Of a stretch of DNA of 64,000 nucleotides, positions 2,912-55,766 are shown one piece after another. Numbering within the stretch: position 1 is the stretch's first letter; every line of letters begins with the position of its first letter. The DNA comes from Luteitalea sp. (GTDB lineage Bacteria > Acidobacteriota > Vicinamibacteria > Vicinamibacterales > Vicinamibacteraceae), in the NCBI GenBank assembly GCA_009377605.1, contig WHTT01000030.1:1-64000 (forward strand). The letters are read 5' to 3'. Below the pieces are notes generated by a model. The model searched no databases and had not been told where the DNA came from. It saw only the letters and a list, made by a program, of their open reading frames with translations. A program made the position numbers and the translations under genes.

Positions 2912-4606
2912 TTACTCCAGCGCCACACCATCGTCGGCGGCACCGAGGAGGAGGCGGCGATGTGCTGGAAACGGCAGCGTCCCCTGGCCCAGCAGCCGGT
3001 CGTGAAACTTCCGCAGCGAGAAGCTGTTGCGCTCCTGACGCTCGCAATCGTCGCGAAGCTTGAGGAGCATGAGCTTGCCGAGGGCGTAGGTCACGTAGCC
3101 CGGGTCGAAGGTGCCGCGTTCCGCCTCACGCCTGGCCGATCCCTCCTCGAGCAACGCCTCGTCTCGGAAGAAGCGCACCCCTTGCTCAACCGACCAATCG
3201 TCGGTGTGAAGCCGCACACCAACCACGAGGCGCGCCAGACGCACGAGCGCTTCCACGAGCTGGCCGAGCTCGATGGCGGGATCTTGTTCGCCAAAGCCCG
3301 CCTCGATCATCAAGTGCTCACCGTAGTGGGCCCATCCTTCGACAAACGACATCGGCGCCAAGAGCGCTGAGCGCCGCTGCTTCGGGGACACGCGGCGCAA
3401 GTGCTGAAAGTGCAAGAAGTGCCCAGGGTAGGCCTCGTGCATGGAGATTGCCCAGAGCGTCGCGTCGCTGAAGTCGCGCAGATGCTCTTCCTGCCGTTCT
3501 GGCGACCAGGCGGGATCGACGTCCGTGACGTAGTAGCTCGAGCGGATGGGGCGCGGCTCGAACGGTCCGGGCGCCCAGAGACTCGCAAAGGTCCATCGAT
3601 AGAATGGCGGCGTGGGCCCAACCTCGAGCGCCGCGTCCTCTGGCACCGATACGAGCTGGCGCGCACGGAGAAAGTCAGCCAGCGCCGTGACCTGCTCGCT
3701 CGCTCGCGCAACCATTTGACCGGCTGGCGGGTGGGCGCGCTTCACCGCTTCCCATACCACGGCCGCCTCGTCACGGCCGACGCGTGCCGCAGCGCGGCGA
3801 AACGCCTCCTTGACCGAGTCGATCTCTCGGAGGCCAATGGCCAACAGCCGATTGGCGTCTGCCGTGACACCCTCATCGAGACGCAGCTTTTGGAGAAACC
3901 GCTCGCTTCCCAGCCGGAACGACGCACGGGCCCGCGGCGCGAGCTCCTTCTCGAGATACTCGATTGTCGCTTCGAGAGCATGCGTGGCTTCAGAGGAGGC
4001 GTCCGCGAGGTCGCCAAGCAGCGAGAGCTCATCGACCGTGGCGAACGCCCGGGGCAGGTCACGCTCAATGAACTGCAACAAGCCACGCAGCGTCTCGACC
4101 GCTGTCCGGATGAAGATGCCGGGCGGCTCTTTCACGTTGTTCCGCAGCGCATCGAAGAGTCGCGGCACTTGCCAGAGCTTGGAGACGACCCGGCGCGCGC
4201 GCTCAGAAACGGGCGCGTAAGGGAAGATGGCCTGCGCGGCAAGGCTCACGGCCAACGTCTCCGCGTAGAGCTGCGGATTGCGCTCCCATGTACGAACGGT
4301 TTCCAGCTCGTACACACGCGACTGTAGGTTGCTCGACAGCGCCTCGGCCTCAACCCGCTCCTCATCGTTCAACACGGCGGTCTTGATTGCCGCGAGGCGG
4401 CGTGCGAATCCACCGAGCTCGCGGGTCTGACGGTCGATGGCTGCGCGCGAGAAATCCTCGAGGAGGTCATCGTAGGCATGAACACCATCGAACGTCGCGC
4501 CGGTGGGCTCCTGCTCGTAGCGCCAGCTCAGATAATCCTCGACGAAATGCGGAAGCGCTTCGGCCACGCCGGCTCTTCCTAGGGAGCCTTTCGATTGACG
4601 AGTCAC
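2912..4606 (-). CDS. DUF885 family protein (putative metallopeptidase)
   Basis: The 564-residue protein carries the family hallmark MHEAYPGHFLH near residue 390, whose HExxxGH core is expected to bind a metal. A conserved ERNPQLYAETLAV stretch lies near residue 108, and FVEGWAHYGEHLM follows the metal site with another His/Glu pair. DUF885 proteins are distant relatives of zinc metallopeptidases; most are uncharacterised and no substrate can be inferred. No signal peptide is visible from the chosen start, so this copy may be cytosolic, unlike many exported family members. It is divergent from rsmI. Confidence 0.87.
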   Translation of the reverse strand: MTRQSKGSLGRAGVAEALPHFVEDYLSWRYEQEPTGATFDGVHAYDDLLEDFSRAAIDRQTRELGGFARRLAAIKTAVLNDEERVEAEALSSNLQSRVYELETVRTWERNPQLYAETLAVSLAAQAIFPYAPVSERARRVVSKLWQVPRLFDALRNNVKEPPGIFIRTAVETLRGLLQFIERDLPRAFATVDELSLLGDLADASSEATHALEATIEYLEKELAPRARASFRLGSERFLQKLRLDEGVTADANRLLAIGLREIDSVKEAFRRAAARVGRDEAAVVWEAVKRAHPPAGQMVARASEQVTALADFLRARQLVSVPEDAALEVGPTPPFYRWTFASLWAPGPFEPRPIRSSYYVTDVDPAWSPERQEEHLRDFSDATLWAISMHEAYPGHFLHFQHLRRVSPKQRRSALLAPMSFVEGWAHYGEHLMIEAGFGEQDPAIELGQLVEALVRLARLVVGVRLHTDDWSVEQGVRFFRDEALLEEGSARREAERGTFDPGYVTYALGKLMLLKLRDDCERQERNSFSLRKFHDRLLGQGTLPFPAHRRLLLGAADDGVALE

Positions 4607-31917: not shown

Positions 31918-32016
31918 GGTCCTTAGTCCTTGGTCCTTAGTTCTTGGTGCGCGACTGCCGCCGGACCAAGCACCAAGGAGGAAGAACCAAGCACTAAGGA
32001 CCAAGCACCAAGAACT
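31917..32016. repeat. Inverted cluster of TTGGTCCT-type units between atpA and atpG
   Basis: The left arm reads GGTCCTTAGTCCTTGG and TCCTTAGTTCTTGG. The right arm has the complements CCAAGGAGG, AAGCACTAAGGACCAAG and CACCAAGAAC. The result is an imperfect long hairpin in the middle of an operon, just before the atpG start. The same unit in the same arrangement occurs at 55676-55766. Confidence 0.85.
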
Positions 32017-45000: not shown

Positions 45001-45703
45001 CACGAAGCTGCTCGAGGAAGCCGTACGCGCTCTGAAGGGAGAGGAGCTCGAAGACGATCGCCGGACCGCCCTCAATCTCAAGATGGACATTCGAATCGAC
45101 GAGAGCTACATCGAGGACATGAACCAGCGGCTCAGTGTGTATCGGCGCATCGCCTCGGCGCGATCGCTCGACGAGCTGGAGCGCGTCCTGGGGGACGTGC
45201 GGGACCGGTACGGTCCGCCACCTGCAGCGCTGTCCCAGCTGGCGGCGTGCGCACGGCTGCGGATCGCGGCGGATCGCTTGCGGGTCGAGTCGATCGACCG
45301 CGAAGCGTCGGCCATCGTCCTTAAATTCAGGTCCGACGCACCGATCGAGCCCGGCCGTCTGGTTCGCCTGATGGGCAGGCGGCCCGATGTAAGGCTTGTG
45401 CCGCCTGGATTGCTGAGGCTGGAGCTGGCGCCGCCATCGCTCCAGGGGCGAACCCAGCGTCACGTTCCGGACAGGAGCGTGCGCGGCGCCCCGGCGCCGG
45501 CGACCGCCAGCCGGGTCAGCCGCGCTTCCGGGGACGGCCAGTCGTGGTGGACCGCACGAGCCAGAGAAGCTGACGTTCGGGCGGGATTCAGCAAGGCGGA
45601 GGTCACGAGGCGCCCCGCGGAAGACCCGCTAGCACCTGGGGGGGTTGTCGCCCGGGTCGAGCAGCTGCTGGTCGAGTTGGAGGAGGCTGCGGTGGCGGGG
45701 TGA
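42074..45703 (+). CDS. mfd: Transcription-repair coupling factor Mfd
   Basis: DNA translocase that removes stalled RNA polymerase and recruits UvrA. The product is about 1209 residues; ATGs at 42074 and 42077 are both possible starts. The UvrB-homology region has FPSPEVDPYRGLAPH and DQHGEFYVRGGVVDVFPAG. The RNAP-interaction domain includes GDFVVHIDNGVGRFVGLRKI. The RecG-like motor has LLCGDVGYGKTEVAMRAAFK, VDEEQRFGVVHKE, MTATPIPRTL and the TRG block NRADRYGLAQLYQLRGRVGRS. The tail after about 1140 is extended and Arg/Ala-rich. A GTGAC repeat element follows at once. Confidence 0.96.
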   Translation: MMSSATTAFSLRTILAIAADLAGFTRPEQGWSGLSAAAKALAIAAAAGERPILAVVPADRDIEPLVANARFFLRALARTADDAAEPRVLPFPSPEVDPYRGLAPHFDVAAARARALHALASRRAQLVVASTAALLPRLVAPDRLMQAVTELRPEQEIAPSDLADRLVTAGFSREDPVDQHGEFYVRGGVVDVFPAGDRLPIRLEFVGDTVESIRAFDPETQRSVSVLEHVRILPLTEQLADDSGAASTTVFDYAARADAQLVVLEWTDVDRLGQARAEGIASSYRDAVARGDEVLPVDRMTVAWSDVAERLVRATRLETLGLDDLAAPTPPEVLRHVRCQPSVHFHGRVSQWVEELVRAREMGETTVLVAETSGRAERVIELLREHGLVAEPVDETLDGAQSRAEAVQGAHDVAPRPPEAPLLVVVGDLSEGFRLPEAKLRLYAETDVFDEERVGGERRRRITAKGETRRSPFLSDFRDLRVGDFVVHIDNGVGRFVGLRKIDVSGEAREFMELRYAGEDKLFVPVDRLDLVQKHTGGGRPVLDRLGGASWEKTKTRVKRAMRDMAEELLKLYAARNAIAGHTFSGDTHWQQEFEDAFPYELTVDQRSAITDIKRDMEAPTPMDRLLCGDVGYGKTEVAMRAAFKAVMDGKQVAFLAPTTVLALQHLRTLTSRFAAFPARIDMVSRFRSRAEQKATLAGLADGRVDVIVGTHRLLSKDVVLRDLGLLIVDEEQRFGVVHKERLKQLRKRVDVLTMTATPIPRTLNMSLVGIRDMSIIETPPKDRQAIQTHVTEFDARILASAVQQELERGGQVYVVHNRVESIYSFAQLIQRLVPDARVGVGHGQMEEAELERVMVGFVDRKFDVLVSTTIVENGLDIPNANTLIVNRADRYGLAQLYQLRGRVGRSDRRAYAYLVVPPADTLSDVARRRLAAIREFSDLGAGFRVAALDLEIRGAGNLLGGEQSGHIEAVGFEMYTKLLEEAVRALKGEELEDDRRTALNLKMDIRIDESYIEDMNQRLSVYRRIASARSLDELERVLGDVRDRYGPPPAALSQLAACARLRIAADRLRVESIDREASAIVLKFRSDAPIEPGRLVRLMGRRPDVRLVPPGLLRLELAPPSLQGRTQRHVPDRSVRGAPAPATASRVSRASGDGQSWWTARAREADVRAGFSKAEVTRRPAEDPLAPGGVVARVEQLLVELEEAAVAG

Positions 45704-45880
45704 GGGGGTGACGGGGTGACAAGGTGACAAGGTGAGGGGTGAACCAGCGCAGGTAGCGCGGGGCCTTTAGGCCCCGCGGCGCAGGAATCGGCAGTGGCGA
45801 GCGAACTTCACCCCGGTCATCGAGCCGCCCCGTCACCTTGTCACCTTGTCACCCCCTCACCGTGTCACCGTGTCACGCCC
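45699..45880. repeat. Composite repeat element, copy 1: GTGACAAGG-type arms around a type C REP
   Basis: Tandem GGTGACAAG units at about 45699-45742 are matched by complementary TCACCTTGTC units at about 45829-45876. Between them is GTAGCGCGGGGCC-TTTA-GGCCCCGCGG (45753-45780) and a spacer CAGGAATCGGCAGTGGCGAG. The same order and a similar spacer occur at 50390-50575. Confidence 0.9.
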
Positions 45881-45928
45881 TGCCTGTACAATAGAAAGGT
45901 TCGCCGCCCCCGGCGGCTGGAGTTGACC

Positions 45929-48879: not shown

Positions 48880-48915
48880 TTCAGGAATCGGGAATCAGGA
48901 ATCAGGAGTCAGGAC
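48880..48915. repeat. GGAATCAG tandem units forming the response-regulator 3' end
   Basis: Units TCAGGAATCGGGAATCAGGA and ATCAGGAGTCAGGA lie in the gap and run into the C-terminal codons of the sigma-54 activator, which ends in Thr-Pro-Asp-Ser encoded by the repeat. The unit matches the one at 21601-21640. Confidence 0.75.
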
Positions 48916-50340
48916 TTCGGATTCCCGCGAGATATCGCCGTCTTGATCGAGAATCGTGCGCTCGAGCCGCTTCAACTTCTCGATGAGCGTGGTGCGCTTG
49001 AGACCGAGCAATTCTGCGGCTTGCCGCTTGTTGCCACTGGTACGGGCAAGTGCTTGACGAATCAAGGCATGCTCGATCCGGCCGATGTAGCTTTCGAGGC
49101 CGAGTCCCTCGTCCGGAAGCACGACATCCCGCTCCTCCTGTACGAGCTCTACGGTCTGCAGTGAGGGTGGCAGCGCGGCGACGTCGATTTGCGCGCATCC
49201 CGGGCTCAACGCGAGCGCCCGCTCCACCGCGTTCTCCAGCTCACGGATATTGCCCGGCCAGGTGTAGCCCATCAATCGACGCATGGCTGCCTGCGAGAAG
49301 GTGACGCCGCGCCGCGGTGGCTGCATCTCGGATCCGAGCTTCTCGAGAAAGTGTTGCACGAGTAGCGGGATATCCTCGCGTCGCTCGCGCAGCGGGGGAA
49401 GACTGACAGGGATCACGTTCAGTCGATAGAAGAGGTCTTCACGGAACGTCCCGCTCTTGACCAGCTGCGCGAGGTCGGCATTGGTGGCGGCGATCACGCG
49501 CACGTCGACCCGGACGGGCCGCGTATCGCCAACCCGCTCGAATTCCCGCTCCTGGAGCACGCGCAGCAGCTTCGCCTGCAGGGCGGGGCTCATCGTTCCC
49601 ACCTCGTCGAGGAACAGCGTGCCCTTGTTGGCTTGCTCCAGGCGACCGCTTCGTGTGGTCACGGCACCCGTGAATGCACCACGCACGTGACCGAAGAGCT
49701 CGGCCTCGAGAAGGGTCTCGGGAATGGCACTGCAGTTGATGGCCACGAACCGTTCGCGGTGCCGGGGGCTATTGTGGTGAAGCGCTCGGGCCACCAACTC
49801 CTTGCCCGTGCCCGTTTCACCCGAAATCAAGATAGTGCTCGACGTCCCAGCGACGGTTTCCAACAGCTGAAAGAGCTCGCGCATCAGGCCGCTGCGTCCG
49901 ACGAGGCCCTCGAACCGGTAGCGCTCTTGAAGCTGGGCGCGGAGGTAGGCATTCTCCGAGCGAAGGCGGCGCACGGCGAGCGCACCCTCGAGCACGAGCT
50001 GCAGCTCGTCGAGCTGAAACGGTTTGGTCAGGAAGTCCGCAGCGCCGCTCTTGATGGCGGCCACGGCATCTTTGACCGTGCCGTACCCGGTCACGACGAT
50101 CACGACGACGTCAGGGTAGCGATTGAGCGCTGCGTCCAGCACGACCGTCCCACTCTGCCCAGGCAGCCGCAGGTCGGTGAGGACGACGTCGAAGGCAAAG
50201 TCGTCCAGGCGCGCGAGCGCATCTTCGGCAGTCGCAGCTTGTTCGACGATGAAGCCCTGACCCGTGAGATATTCCGCCACCGCCAGGCGGAGCGACGCCT
50301 CGTCTTCGACCAGGAGCAAATGTTTCTTACTGTCAGCCAT
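48895..50340 (-). CDS. NtrC-family sigma-54-dependent response regulator
   Basis: Two-component activator of sigma-54 promoters, 481 residues. The receiver domain (1-120) has [18 protein letters not shown] and phospho-Asp in [13 protein letters not shown] (near 56), with [19 protein letters not shown]. The AAA+ domain (about 145-380) has [20 protein letters not shown], the sigma-54 loop GAFTGA, and GTLFLDEVG. The Fis-type HTH is [20 protein letters not shown]. The last residues come from an intergenic repeat. A consensus sigma-54 promoter lies 750 bp away, in front of a FliA-like gene, and a hybrid kinase is beyond it, so these probably work together. Confidence 0.95.
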
Positions 50341-50680
50341 TTCTCACGACCCGTCGGTATTTTGACGATCCGACCGCTCGCCGTCAATCGGGGTGACACG
50401 GTGAGGGGGTGACGGGGTGAACTGGCGTACGTAGCGCGGGGCCTTTTAGGCCCCGCGGCGCAGGAACTTGCAATAGCGAGCGAATTTTCACCCCAGTCGT
50501 CGAGCTGCCCATCACCGTGTCACCCCCTCACCCCGTCACCTTGTCATCCGCTCACCTTGTCACCCTCCTAATGCCTGTGCCCGTTCGACCGATAGACTGA
50601 ACGATAGAGTGGAAGTGACGAGCTCATTAGCCGCCAGGCCCGGCGTCTGCCGTGGCAATCTCGACGAGCAGGGGAGCCGC
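50341..50680. other. Repeat-filled gap upstream of the response regulator
   Basis: Most of it is composite element copy 2 (50390-50575). The remainder, 50576-50680, holds an AT-richer stretch with a GTG that could start the mini-DHp gene early. The promoter of the response regulator must lie near 50341-50390 but none is clear. Confidence 0.7.
50390..50575. repeat. Composite repeat element, copy 2
   Basis: GGGTGACACGGTGAGGGGGT and GACGGGGTGA units lead to GTAGCGCGGGGCC-TTTT-AGGCCCCGCGG (50431-50459). Then come a spacer similar to copy 1 (CAGGAACTTGCAATAGCGAG) and complementary CACCGTGTCACCCCCTCACC units. Copy 1 is 4.7 kb away at 45699-45880, on the other side of surA-like and dusB. Confidence 0.9.
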
Positions 50681-50896
50681 GTGCCTGCCGACGCCACTGA
50701 CCTAACCGCGCTGTTTCATCGTCTGAACAACCAGCTCGGCGTTATCCTCGCCCACGCCGAGTTACTGCAGGTACGGGCGGGCGACGAGCAGAGCCGCTCG
50801 CGAGCCTCGGAGGTCGTGCGCGGCGCGCTCGACGCGCTCACCACGACTCGCGAGATTCGCGAACAGTGGGAGGGATCGCGCCCCTCGAAAGAGTGA
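50681..50896 (+). CDS. Small DHp-like protein (histidine kinase H-box without ATPase domain)
   Basis: A 71-residue protein from the GTG at 50681, which has AGGGGAG just upstream; a GTG at 50609 would give 95 residues. The core LTALFHRLNNQLGVILAHAE resembles the DHp H-box HELNNPLxxI of NtrB/PAS kinases, with the potential phospho-His in FHRLNN. A second helix with RASEVVRGALDALTTTREIR completes a two-helix hairpin. There is no HATPase domain. It could be a phosphotransfer dimer or antagonist for the neighbouring two-component genes, or a remnant of a kinase. No function is certain. Confidence 0.7.
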   Translation: MPADATDLTALFHRLNNQLGVILAHAELLQVRAGDEQSRSRASEVVRGALDALTTTREIREQWEGSRPSKE

Positions 50897-51191
50897 CGAC
50901 CGCGGCAGTGTCGTCGTCACAGAATCGTCGATGGGGGGAGTATATCGTCATTTTGTTGACGACAGGCCACGCTAGAGACGCGCGACAACCGTCCGAAACA
51001 GGACGGTCATACCCAGTAAGTTATTTCTAATCAATCCGTTATCAGCCTGCACCGATCATTGTTCGGCGCAGCTGTCGAAGAATCGACGATTGGCACTGCG
51101 ATTGCGTCCTTTCGTCTCGACCGGCGGATTCGCCGGCGAAGGTTGAGTGGCGAGGGGAACCATCGACCTTCGGGGGGTGAGGGGGAGCAGG
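50897..51191. other. Intergenic region with the sigma-54 promoter of the FliA-like gene
   Basis: AT-richer than the genes around it, with GTCGTCA-type inverted sequence (GTCGTCACAG / TGACGAC) around 50908-50966. It contains ACCGTCC/GGACGGT (50988-50994 and 51002-51008), a 7-bp inverted repeat about 100 bp upstream of the -24/-12 promoter, where enhancer sites for an NtrC-type activator are expected. Confidence 0.55.
51091..51105 (+). promoter_or_regulatory. Sigma-54 (-24/-12) promoter
   Basis: TGGCAC-TGCGA-TTGC matches TGGCAC-N5-TTGC exactly, with T before it as in the extended consensus. It is 87 bp upstream of the ATG of the FliA-like gene. The sigma-54 activator gene at 48895-50340 is the natural candidate regulator. 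Confidence 0.85.
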
Positions 51192-52220
51192 ATGGAGCCG
51201 CTTTGTCAGAAGACACAGGCTCGCCTGGCTGATCATCTGCCGTTTGTCGAGGCGCTGGCGCGTCGGGTTGCGGCATCGATGCCCAACTCGGTGGAGCTGA
51301 ACGATCTGGTTCAAGACGGGATGGTCGGCCTCATTGATGCCGTGCAGCGCTTCGACGCGTCTCGCGGTATCCGATTCGAAACCTTTGCCGAACGGCGCGT
51401 GCGAGGCGCCATGATCGACGCGCTGCGGCGTGCGGCGTGGCCACGCGGCGTGCGACGGCTGCGGCGTCAGCTCGACGAGACGCGCGATTGCCTGCGCCGC
51501 GAGCACAATCGCGAGCCGACGCTCGCCGACATCGCCGAGCGGCTAGGAACCACCGAGGAACGGCTGGGACGAGCCGTCGTTCGCATTCGGACCATCGAGT
51601 CCACGTCGGCCGCCTGCGCGGGAGAGTCGGACGATCGTTTGCTGCCCGCGATCTGCCTCCCGCCAGAGACGCCGCCACCAGATGCCGAGCTCGAGGCGTC
51701 TGAGCGCTGCCGCTTGCTGCGCCAAGCCATTGCACAGCTTCCACCGCGAGAGCGCCTGTTGATTGGTTTGTACTACTACCGTGAGGCAACGATGAAGGAG
51801 ATTGGCGCCCAGATCGGCGTCAACGAGTCACGAGTCTCACAGCTTCATGCACGCGCCGTCGCGCGGCTGCGGCAGCTCCTGGCCGATGAGCGCGAGGCAC
51901 CGACTTCAGCTGCGGCTACGACGCCGTCCAGGTCTGGCAGAGACGTCGTCAACCTCGCCAACGTGCAGAGCCGTATGGCTCGCGCCCGCTTGTCATCGTC
52001 CGCGATGCGCAATGCCGACGCGGATCCAGGTGTCGTCTTGCGCTATCCGGAGACGACCTCGCGCGCAATGGCCAGCAGATCGCCGAGACGGAACGGCTTG
52101 GCGAGCCAGCGGCACCCGCTCTCTTCGAGGAACCGCGAGGCATCGTTGCCCACGACGTCGCCGGTCACGAACACGACGCGGCGCGCGAGGGCCGGTGTCT
52201 TGCCAGCAATCGCGCGGTAG
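51192..52220 (+). CDS. FliA/WhiG-type (group 3) RNA polymerase sigma factor
   Basis: Alternative sigma factor of the sigma-28 type, 342 residues from the ATG at 51192 with GGGGGAGCAG upstream. Region 2 has HLPFVEALARRVAASMPNSV, LNDLVQDGMVGLIDAVQRFD, and FETFAERRVRGAMIDALRR. Region 3 is REPTLADIAERLG, and region 4 is LPPRERLLIGLYYYREATMK and EIGAQIGVNESRVSQLHARA. The family is about 240 residues; here about 100 disordered Ser/Arg residues follow, and the last 178 bp overlap the kinase gene on the other strand. It is driven by a consensus sigma-54 promoter. No flagellar genes are near, so its regulon is unknown. Confidence 0.92.
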   Translation: MEPLCQKTQARLADHLPFVEALARRVAASMPNSVELNDLVQDGMVGLIDAVQRFDASRGIRFETFAERRVRGAMIDALRRAAWPRGVRRLRRQLDETRDCLRREHNREPTLADIAERLGTTEERLGRAVVRIRTIESTSAACAGESDDRLLPAICLPPETPPPDAELEASERCRLLRQAIAQLPPRERLLIGLYYYREATMKEIGAQIGVNESRVSQLHARAVARLRQLLADEREAPTSAAATTPSRSGRDVVNLANVQSRMARARLSSSAMRNADADPGVVLRYPETTSRAMASRSPRRNGLASQRHPLSSRNREASLPTTSPVTNTTRRARAGVLPAIAR

Positions 52221-53581
52221 AACGAAGGCCCATCGAGGCGGGGCAAGCGGAGGTCGCAGACGATCAGATCGTAGGCTTCTGCCTGAACGCGCACGAGAGC
52301 CTGCTGACCATCAGTGGCGCGGTCCACGAGGAACCCGGCGTCGGTCATCGCATCGGCAACTGCCGCAGCCAAAGCGATCTCATCCTCCACCAACAGCACG
52401 CGCAAGCCTTCGACGAATCGCGTCTGGGGCGCGCTCCGGCGTGCCGGCGCTCGCAACTGTCCTCCAGCGATCGGGAGCGCCAGGGAGAAGCAGGTGCCCT
52501 GTCCCACCTCCGACCTCACGGAGAGCCGGCCGCCGTGCTCTTGAACGATCGCGTAGGCGACCGTCAGGCCGAGACCGGTCCCTTGGCCCGCTTCCTTGGT
52601 CGTGAAAAACGGGTCGAAGATCCGTGACTGTGCCTCTGCTGGAATACCAGGTCCATCATCGTTGATCTCCAGCAGAATCGCGTCGCGTTCCGGATCGTGC
52701 CAGCTTCTAACGACGAGCGTTCCACCGCCGTGCGCCGCGTGCATGGCCTGCTCGGCGTTGATGATCAGATTGAGCACCACTTGCTGGAGTTGGTGCGGGT
52801 CTGCAAACGTCTGCGGCAGGGTGGCTGCGAGTGCGTCGGTAACGGTGATGTTGTCGACGCCACGGCCGTAGAACCGGAGCTCGAGCGCCTCGCGGACGAT
52901 CTGGTTGACGTCGACCATGGTCCGCGTCGTGTGCCGCTTGCGGGCAAAGGTGAGCAGATGCCGGACGATCTTCGCCGCACGCTCCGCCTCGGCCAGAATC
53001 GTCTGCAGGGCTTCCTGGACCCGCGGCGTTACCTCTTGACCGGCAACGCGCTCGGCCACGGTCAGGATGGTCGCCAGCGGGTTGTTGAGCTCGTGTGCAA
53101 CACCGGAGAGCGTCTGGCCGAGGACCGCCATCTTCTCGGTTTGCAGAATCTGGTGATAGATATCGCGTGATTGCTCCTCGAGCCGCTTGCGGTCACTGAC
53201 GTTCCGCAACAGCGCCTGGATGCGCAGCGCATCTCCGTCCGAATCCGCGTGGGCCGTCACCTCCACCCAGACAATCCGACCATCGATCCGGCGTAACCGC
53301 AGCAGCAGGTCACGGACGACGCCGTCTGCCGTCAACCGCTCCAGAAACGTGCGCCGCGTTTGGGCGTCGACGAATCGTTCGGGAGCAAACAGGCAGACTT
53401 CTTCATCGGCCTGATCGGGCGTGAAGCCGAACATCAGCTTGGCTTGGGGGTTCACCGCGAGCGTGTAGCTCGCGTCCGGCGACACGACACCAACGTAGAT
53501 GCCGTGCTGCATTGCGACGAAAAAGCGATCGAGTGCGGCGGCAAGGGTCTCCGTGCCGATCGAGGACTCTCGTGAGGACAT
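52043..53581 (-). CDS. PAS-containing hybrid sensor histidine kinase
   Basis: Cytosolic sensor kinase with no TM segments, 512 residues from the ATG at 53581. A PAS domain spans about 18-130, followed by the HisKA H-box SGVAHELNNPLATILTVAER (His near 165). The HATPase motifs are VLNLIINAEQAM (N), INDDGPGIP (G1), FDPFFTTKEAG (F) and GTGLGLTVAY (G2). A C-terminal receiver has VLLVEDEIALAAAVADAM, DLIVCDLRLPRLDG and the Lys in LAKPFRL. It may pass phosphate to the NtrC-type regulator. Its 3' end overlaps the sigma-factor tail. Confidence 0.94.
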   Translation of the reverse strand: MSSRESSIGTETLAAALDRFFVAMQHGIYVGVVSPDASYTLAVNPQAKLMFGFTPDQADEEVCLFAPERFVDAQTRRTFLERLTADGVVRDLLLRLRRIDGRIVWVEVTAHADSDGDALRIQALLRNVSDRKRLEEQSRDIYHQILQTEKMAVLGQTLSGVAHELNNPLATILTVAERVAGQEVTPRVQEALQTILAEAERAAKIVRHLLTFARKRHTTRTMVDVNQIVREALELRFYGRGVDNITVTDALAATLPQTFADPHQLQQVVLNLIINAEQAMHAAHGGGTLVVRSWHDPERDAILLEINDDGPGIPAEAQSRIFDPFFTTKEAGQGTGLGLTVAYAIVQEHGGRLSVRSEVGQGTCFSLALPIAGGQLRAPARRSAPQTRFVEGLRVLLVEDEIALAAAVADAMTDAGFLVDRATDGQQALVRVQAEAYDLIVCDLRLPRLDGPSFYRAIAGKTPALARRVVFVTGDVVGNDASRFLEESGCRWLAKPFRLGDLLAIAREVVSG

Positions 53582-53611
53582 GTTGCAGCCGAATTGTCGG
53601 CACTGTATCAC

Positions 53612-55407: not shown

Positions 55408-55762
55408 CTCGCGCAGGGCGCTTCTGGCGACTGAATGGGGCGAAGGGGTTGAGAACCGCGCGGCACGGCGCCAAGGCTGGGCTGGTCGTGGAAACGGCAT
55501 CCACGCGCGCGCGGTCTCGGGGCTTCTGTCTGCAAATTGAACGCCAGCCGCGAGGATCGCAAAATCCATTGGATTGCGCCACCTTGTGCGAAAAGCTGCT
55601 GCCCGGCCGCCGGCTCGTGACGTCGTCCAAGACGCAGCTTGTCAAAACTACACGCTGGGGCTCGAGCCGCTAGCGGTCCTCGGTCCTTGGTCCTCGATCC
55701 TTGGTCCGCCTTGGCATCGGGGCAATAGGCGCACCAAGAACCAAGGACCAAGAACCAAGGAC
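55408..55762. other. Non-coding gap with TTGGTCC minisatellite
   Basis: No gene-like sequence apart from the listed repeat. 55676-55766 carries the TTGGTCC cluster. The rest (55408-55675) is GC-rich and shows no clear promoter for the leftward lmo0937 gene. Confidence 0.6.
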
Positions 55763-55766
55763 CTAG
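55676..55766. repeat. Inverted cluster of TTGGTCC units before fabZ
   Basis: Left arm: GGTCCTCGGTCCTTGGTCCT, CGATCCTTGGTCC. Right arm: CACCAAGAACCAAGGACCAA and GAACCAAGGACC. It ends at the fabZ stop codon. The same unit in the same inverted layout is at 31917-32016 inside the atp operon, 24 kb away. Confidence 0.88.

Follow-up and report, generated by a model that had tools for sequence, protein, structure and literature searches.

A candidate free-standing DHp phosphotransfer protein beside an NtrC-type regulator and a FliA/WhiG-type sigma factor in Vicinamibacterales

What can a DHp domain do when it is encoded without a catalytic domain? The question is raised by a 71-residue protein encoded on the forward strand at positions 50,681-50,896 of a 64,000-nt stretch of Luteitalea sp. 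DNA (contig WHTT01000030.1), hereafter the window. In principle, such a domain may take phosphate from a receiver, give phosphate to a receiver, hydrolyze a receiver's phosphate, or pair with another DHp domain. A preliminary description of the locus proposed a phosphotransfer hub or a decoy for the neighboring kinase and regulators. On the comparative evidence set out here, the protein probably moves or removes phosphate within an NtrC/sigma circuit, and the likeliest role, to which we give somewhat less than even weight, is phosphotransfer between the receiver of a neighboring hybrid kinase and the NtrC-type regulator.

The gene is clearly maintained. Its reading frame starts with GTG, with AGGGGAG just 5' of the start; in-frame GTGs further upstream would lengthen the product to 93-95 residues, and the homology of relatives begins at about the 71-residue form. 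The preliminary description had held that a lack of conservation in relatives would undo its reading, and the reading survives this check, with 53 of 60 relatives matching at E≤0.01. A strong profile match (E≤3e-20) was obtained, by our own tally, for 133 of 162 genomes in the order and for none of the class's other 31 genomes, while the best match outside the order in a 297-genome search reached 3.9e-7. Most of the order's genomes that gave no such match, apart from eight losses described below, have the locus truncated at a contig end or altogether missing. Named relatives comprise Vicinamibacterales and Acidobacteria gp6 MAGs, among which Luteitalea sp. is closest. Within the genus, dN is 0.106, dS 0.755, and dN/dS 0.14, with 9, 5, and 28 differences at the three codon positions in turn, a pattern indicating that the gene is under purifying selection. 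A chance reading frame is ruled out by this conservation, the dN/dS value, and a fixed gene order, bearing out the original claim of a real 71-residue protein. The 101 orthologous loci yield 91 distinct proteins; the sets L033-L052 and L098-L177 share some genomes, so counts of loci are not independent.

Several residues of the protein are strictly kept. The protein carries the H-box FHRLNNQLGVILAHAELL and a second helix, and nine positions are invariant in all 91 distinct proteins: His13, Leu15, Asn17, Leu19, Gly20, Leu23, Glu27, Arg41, and Ala52. His13 (codon cat, 50,717-50,719) is the candidate phosphoacceptor, and Asn17 lies at +4 from it, in keeping with the Thr or Asn of the HisKA phosphatase site. 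The residue at +1 is Arg in 79 of the 91 homologues (HRLNN in the window's protein), and the acidic +1 residue required by HisKA kinases occurs in none of them. No Pfam match to HATPase_c was found in the protein, which thus has neither the +1 acid nor the attached HATPase of a HisKA kinase and, being without an ATP-binding domain, should be unable to use ATP or to autophosphorylate. The preliminary description of an H-box-like sequence and a second helix without an ATPase domain is therefore accurate.

The fold and the homology point the same way. AlphaFold2, run on 58 sequences, predicts a single helical hairpin of residues 3-32 (containing His13) and 36-65, with a mean pLDDT of 88.3 and a pTM of 0.69. 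Aligned by hhalign with the DHp domain of the kinase from its own locus, the family profile gives a probability of 96 and an E-value of 4.3e-9 over 46 ungapped columns, with His placed on His. General libraries return fainter matches. PF00512 (HisKA) scores 13.1 bits (E 0.1), below its curated cut-off of 26.9 bits, and matches 24 of 58 relatives at E≤1 (best 0.0028); at the same threshold, the HWE/HisKA_2 profiles PF07568 and PF07536 match two (best 0.13) and one (best 0.11) of the 58 members, respectively. No match to PF01627 (HPt) was obtained at E≤10. A sequence search of solved structures gave 5dfx as its best DHp entry (E 1.5, not significant), and Foldseek ranked kinase DHp structures first (ZraS 9jfj and GacS 7n0e), all at E>0.4 and likewise not significant; the best rows from VIA-align (Z 9.5 and below) were unrelated hairpins. 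Taken as a whole, the homology, the predicted fold, and the invariant His support an isolated-DHp identity, and the product should be a free-standing DHp domain that would pair into a dimeric four-helix bundle.

The neighborhood suggests where such a domain might act. Orthologous loci share an order of divergent NtrC-type regulator, small helix-turn-helix (HTH) gene (in most), DHp-only gene, sigma factor, and convergent hybrid kinase. In the window, the NtrC-type response regulator (REC, sigma-54 AAA+, and Fis HTH domains by Pfam) occupies 48,895-50,340 on the reverse strand, and the FliA/WhiG-type sigma factor lies at 51,192-52,220 on the forward strand (first in-frame ATG at 51,192, within a reading frame open from a GTG at 51,147; TIGR02479, 205 bits against a cut-off of 189.6). 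The gene thus sits between a sigma-54 activator and a sigma factor, as originally described. The hybrid histidine kinase (PAS-HisKA-HATPase-REC by Pfam) follows at 52,043-53,611 on the reverse strand. The signaling residues of these neighbors are intact: the REC Asp, the REC Lys, and the GAFTGA Thr are each kept in all 107 NtrC orthologues, and the kinase retains its His in 92/92 and its REC Asp in 94/94 ungapped alignment rows. Relative to the DHp-only gene, the strand is opposite for NtrC (96/96 measured loci), the same for sigma (98/98), and opposite for the kinase (88/88). The arrangement has exceptions, including family f4, in which the DHp-only gene stays beside sigma while the NtrC and kinase genes are located elsewhere, and genome G021, in which the DHp-only gene is present and no kinase orthologue was found at E≤1e-80. 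The small HTH gene (PF12728), which lies between NtrC and the DHp-only gene in most loci, is lacking in the window's genus and in several further genera. A MerR/excisionase-like HTH_17 gene of this kind is seen at 2191-2400 of L085, and in most orthologous loci it sits between the NtrC gene and the DHp-only gene or the latter's former place.

A flagellar FliA locus was considered and ruled out, as the window's own genome has no match to FlhA and flagellated relatives carry a separate sigma factor, 41-45% identical, that adjoins flhA. FlhA is encoded in only 16 of the 60 relatives, and the circuit is therefore not tied to flagella.

The sequences upstream of the sigma gene indicate how it may be controlled. 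A sigma-54 type -24/-12 promoter, TGGCACTGCGATTGC, lies at 51,091-51,105 on the forward strand, and the strict pattern TGGC[ACT]N6TTGC precedes the sigma gene in 50 of 106 loci, against 0.5 expected. An enhancer-like palindrome, GTCATTTTGTTGAC (50,947-50,960; family consensus GTCA-N6-TGAC), is a candidate NtrC site; the consensus recurs in 75 of the 106 loci, against 0.7 expected from shuffles, commonly 144-149 bp ahead of the promoter (in the window, 144 bp), and in many loci a second copy lies about 32 bp further away. These scans left out the window's same-genus pair L033 and L098, together with loci having less than 350 nt upstream. A second palindrome, GTCGGTATTTTGAC (50,353-50,366), lies upstream of the NtrC gene and follows the looser pattern GTCN8GAC, which occurs no more than 70 nt upstream of that gene in 22 of 101 loci, against 1.7 expected; here the scan left out L033, L098, rows scoring below 450 bits, rows whose match does not begin near residue 1, and those with less than 60 nt upstream. 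RpoN is encoded in all 20 genomes searched. We infer that the NtrC-type regulator binds the GTCA-N6-TGAC palindrome and, given a sigma gene with both a sigma-54 promoter and a palindromic enhancer, that the circuit probably runs from hybrid kinase to NtrC to sigma.

Natural losses bear on how far this circuit may depend on the protein. In eight genomes, sigma and NtrC lie on one contig without a DHp-only gene: those of genus g86 (G189-G192), G024, G119, G153, and G162. Since the gene was lost and its neighbors kept, the protein is not indispensable, and so it would appear to modulate or short-cut a pathway able to survive without it, or to be replaced in these genomes. The kinase receiver retains its Asp in g86, G153, and G162, that is, in at least six of the eight; in G024 the kinase stops before the receiver, and in G119 no kinase is found on the contig. 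Genus g86 is missing the HTH gene along with the DHp-only gene. A decayed remnant of the DHp-only gene, its His gone, was observed in G153 (L084, 2746-3777).

In the favored reading, His13 would act on receiver domains in the manner of ChpT or Spo0B, cut down to the DHp alone. The protein would take phosphate from the receiver of the neighboring hybrid kinase and hand it, reversibly, to the neighboring NtrC-type regulator, which, once phosphorylated, would turn on the FliA/WhiG-type sigma gene via its sigma-54 promoter. We favor this relay because of the DHp homology with His on His, the predicted hairpin, and the universal His and +4 Asn; because the strands of NtrC, sigma, and hybrid kinase are fixed across the measured loci; because G024, which lacks the gene, has also lost the kinase receiver; and because other DHp-only proteins stand directly upstream of response-regulator genes, with one DHp fused to a receiver. 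The distribution of Hpt domains adds a further argument. Of 27 gene-positive genomes searched, 11 gave no Hpt-domain match, among them the window's own, and with a kinase receiver that keeps its conserved Asp, another phosphotransferase would therefore be needed there; if that receiver feeds a relay, the DHp-only protein would be the natural next step. The corresponding absence among gene-less genomes is one in eight (seven have an Hpt match), a difference too small to weigh. Against the relay stand family f4, with its NtrC and kinase genes elsewhere, and G021, without a kinase orthologue; the kinase's receiver may, moreover, be purely regulatory. The DHp-only step cannot be obligatory in the gene-less genomes, since at least six of the eight keep a kinase with a receiver. 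Covariation and distance correlation of the protein with kinase, NtrC, or sigma over 75 paired loci (identical triples dropped) were uninformative, several distance values being undefined (nan).

We rank this relay first, a phosphatase second, and sigma binding and a decoy role behind, with a small remainder of the weight given to none of the four. As a phosphatase or phosphate drain, the protein would strip phosphorylated NtrC via Asn17 (and His13), thereby damping sigma expression; we hold this to be unlikely, although it is the main rival to the relay. In HisKA proteins, the +4 Thr or Asn is needed for phosphatase activity and the +1 acid for kinase activity only (PMC3510030), a rule with which a protein that always has Asn at +4 and never an acid at +1 agrees well. 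The loss of the acid is, however, not specific, since Arg at +1 is described as standard for HRxxN-bearing HWE/HisKA_2 kinases (PMC5898713), and strict invariance of the His is not required for hydrolysis in every model. Repeated loss of the gene with the kinase-NtrC pair retained would suit such a modulator.

Direct binding of the sigma factor, as an anti-sigma or delivery protein in a FlgM-like role with the DHp likeness reflecting ancestry only, is improbable. No part of the locus is more constant than the pairing of the DHp-only gene with sigma (on one strand in 98/98, retained together in f4), but the two are not in a tight operon, with the sigma coding core starting 198-594 bp downstream (96 loci) behind its own sigma-54 type promoter; eight genomes keep sigma without the DHp-only gene, no match to the FlgM Pfam family was found at E≤10, and an anti-sigma role leaves the invariant His and Asn unexplained. 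More improbable still is a decoy role, in which the protein would block the kinase by joining its DHp in mixed four-helix bundles, for while the DHp homology between the two is close and Foldseek places the RetS-GacS DHp complex 7n0e second, at a non-significant E of 0.59, a decoy has no need of an invariant His and Asn, and co-expression is not indicated for a kinase on the other strand. Of the two roles first proposed, then, phosphotransfer with kinase and regulator is the better supported by the sequence comparisons, and the decoy has lost ground.

Known systems offer partial precedents for the relay. Spo0B of Bacillus retains a degenerate CA domain. So, as described, does ChpT of Caulobacter (PMC3433190), whereas the DHp-only protein, 71 residues in total and ending 35 residues after the start of helix 2, is without any C-terminal domain. 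ChpT and Spo0B are presented as dimeric histidine phosphotransferases derived from kinases, sharing with our protein a DHp-type helical hairpin, a phosphorelay-type His, and no expected kinase activity, and the likely partners, a hybrid kinase and a response regulator, are as for them (PMC3433190, PMC9981736). The residue after the His is Arg in the DHp-only protein rather than an acid. By analogy, then, the protein may act like ChpT or Spo0B, although membership of their class fails on the missing Bergerat/CA-like domain. The alphaproteobacterial HRxxN pseudo-kinases PhyT and PhyP resemble it in having HRxxN at the His, a lost kinase function, and a sigma-factor circuit (PMC5898713), but PhyT is characterized as membrane-anchored and kinase-derived with a degenerate ATPase domain, and for our protein no HisKA_2 assignment was reached. 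HPt proteins are usually monomeric bundles, whereas a DHp hairpin would be expected to form a dimer (PMC3433190). They would occupy the same relay place while belonging to a different family (PF01627). An isolated EnvZ DHp domain reportedly has phosphatase activity without the catalytic domain. A lone DHp can thus apparently be active, although EnvZ supplied a laboratory fragment and the present case is a natural gene. The earlier remark that isolated DHp proteins are rarely described fits the literature searched, which yielded neither a description of this family nor one of any natural DHp-only protein free of a CA remnant, weak evidence given that subscription papers lie mostly outside the coverage.

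Should the relay be correct, the smallest phosphotransfer unit of bacterial signaling would exist as its own gene, and hybrid kinases would gain a signaling route in genomes without any Hpt match. Such genes would score below the Pfam gathering cut-off and easily be left as "hypothetical". The locus itself offers a testable circuit of hybrid kinase, DHp protein, NtrC, sigma-54 promoter, and FliA/WhiG-type sigma.

Acidobacteriota encode further proteins of this kind. A second family of 53-72 residues, with H-x-[LF]-x-N, is found in L178 (1501-1677), L179, L188, L189, L185, L186, and L187, and in G029 a 58-residue DHp-only reading frame has a 4-bp overlap with the NtrC-type gene that follows. 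Among the best 12 loci of this family, G029 included, a response-regulator frame lies close downstream in seven (four NtrC-type and three of which just a receiver was observed); the other five (L180-L184) have no regulator close downstream. In two genomes of another acidobacterial family, flagellar-operon relatives with HKLRN (L091, 3554-3796; L092, 3694-4050), of 80 and up to 118 residues, lie between flgE or hook genes and fliL, flgE being the neighbor in L092. It may tentatively be suggested that, alongside HPt proteins and the pseudo-kinases descended from kinases, histidine phosphotransfer or phosphatase proteins come in a third kind that recurs and has been overlooked, namely free-standing DHp-only proteins of some 53-80 residues, with at least three families in Acidobacteriota; judged from these loci, a wider class is plausible. 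L093 encodes, from position 3890, a product of about 215 residues in which a HisKA DHp is fused directly to a receiver, with no ATPase.

The stretch between the genes gave no riboswitch or RNA element match at E≤1 in an Rfam scan. Imperfect 8-bp GTCACC/GGTGAC tandem repeats lie in intergenic DNA of the window in both orientations (45,691-45,742, 45,828-45,881, 50,389-50,420, and 50,508-50,566), and other repeats of 7-8 bp are present at 31,918-32,015 and 55,674-55,763.
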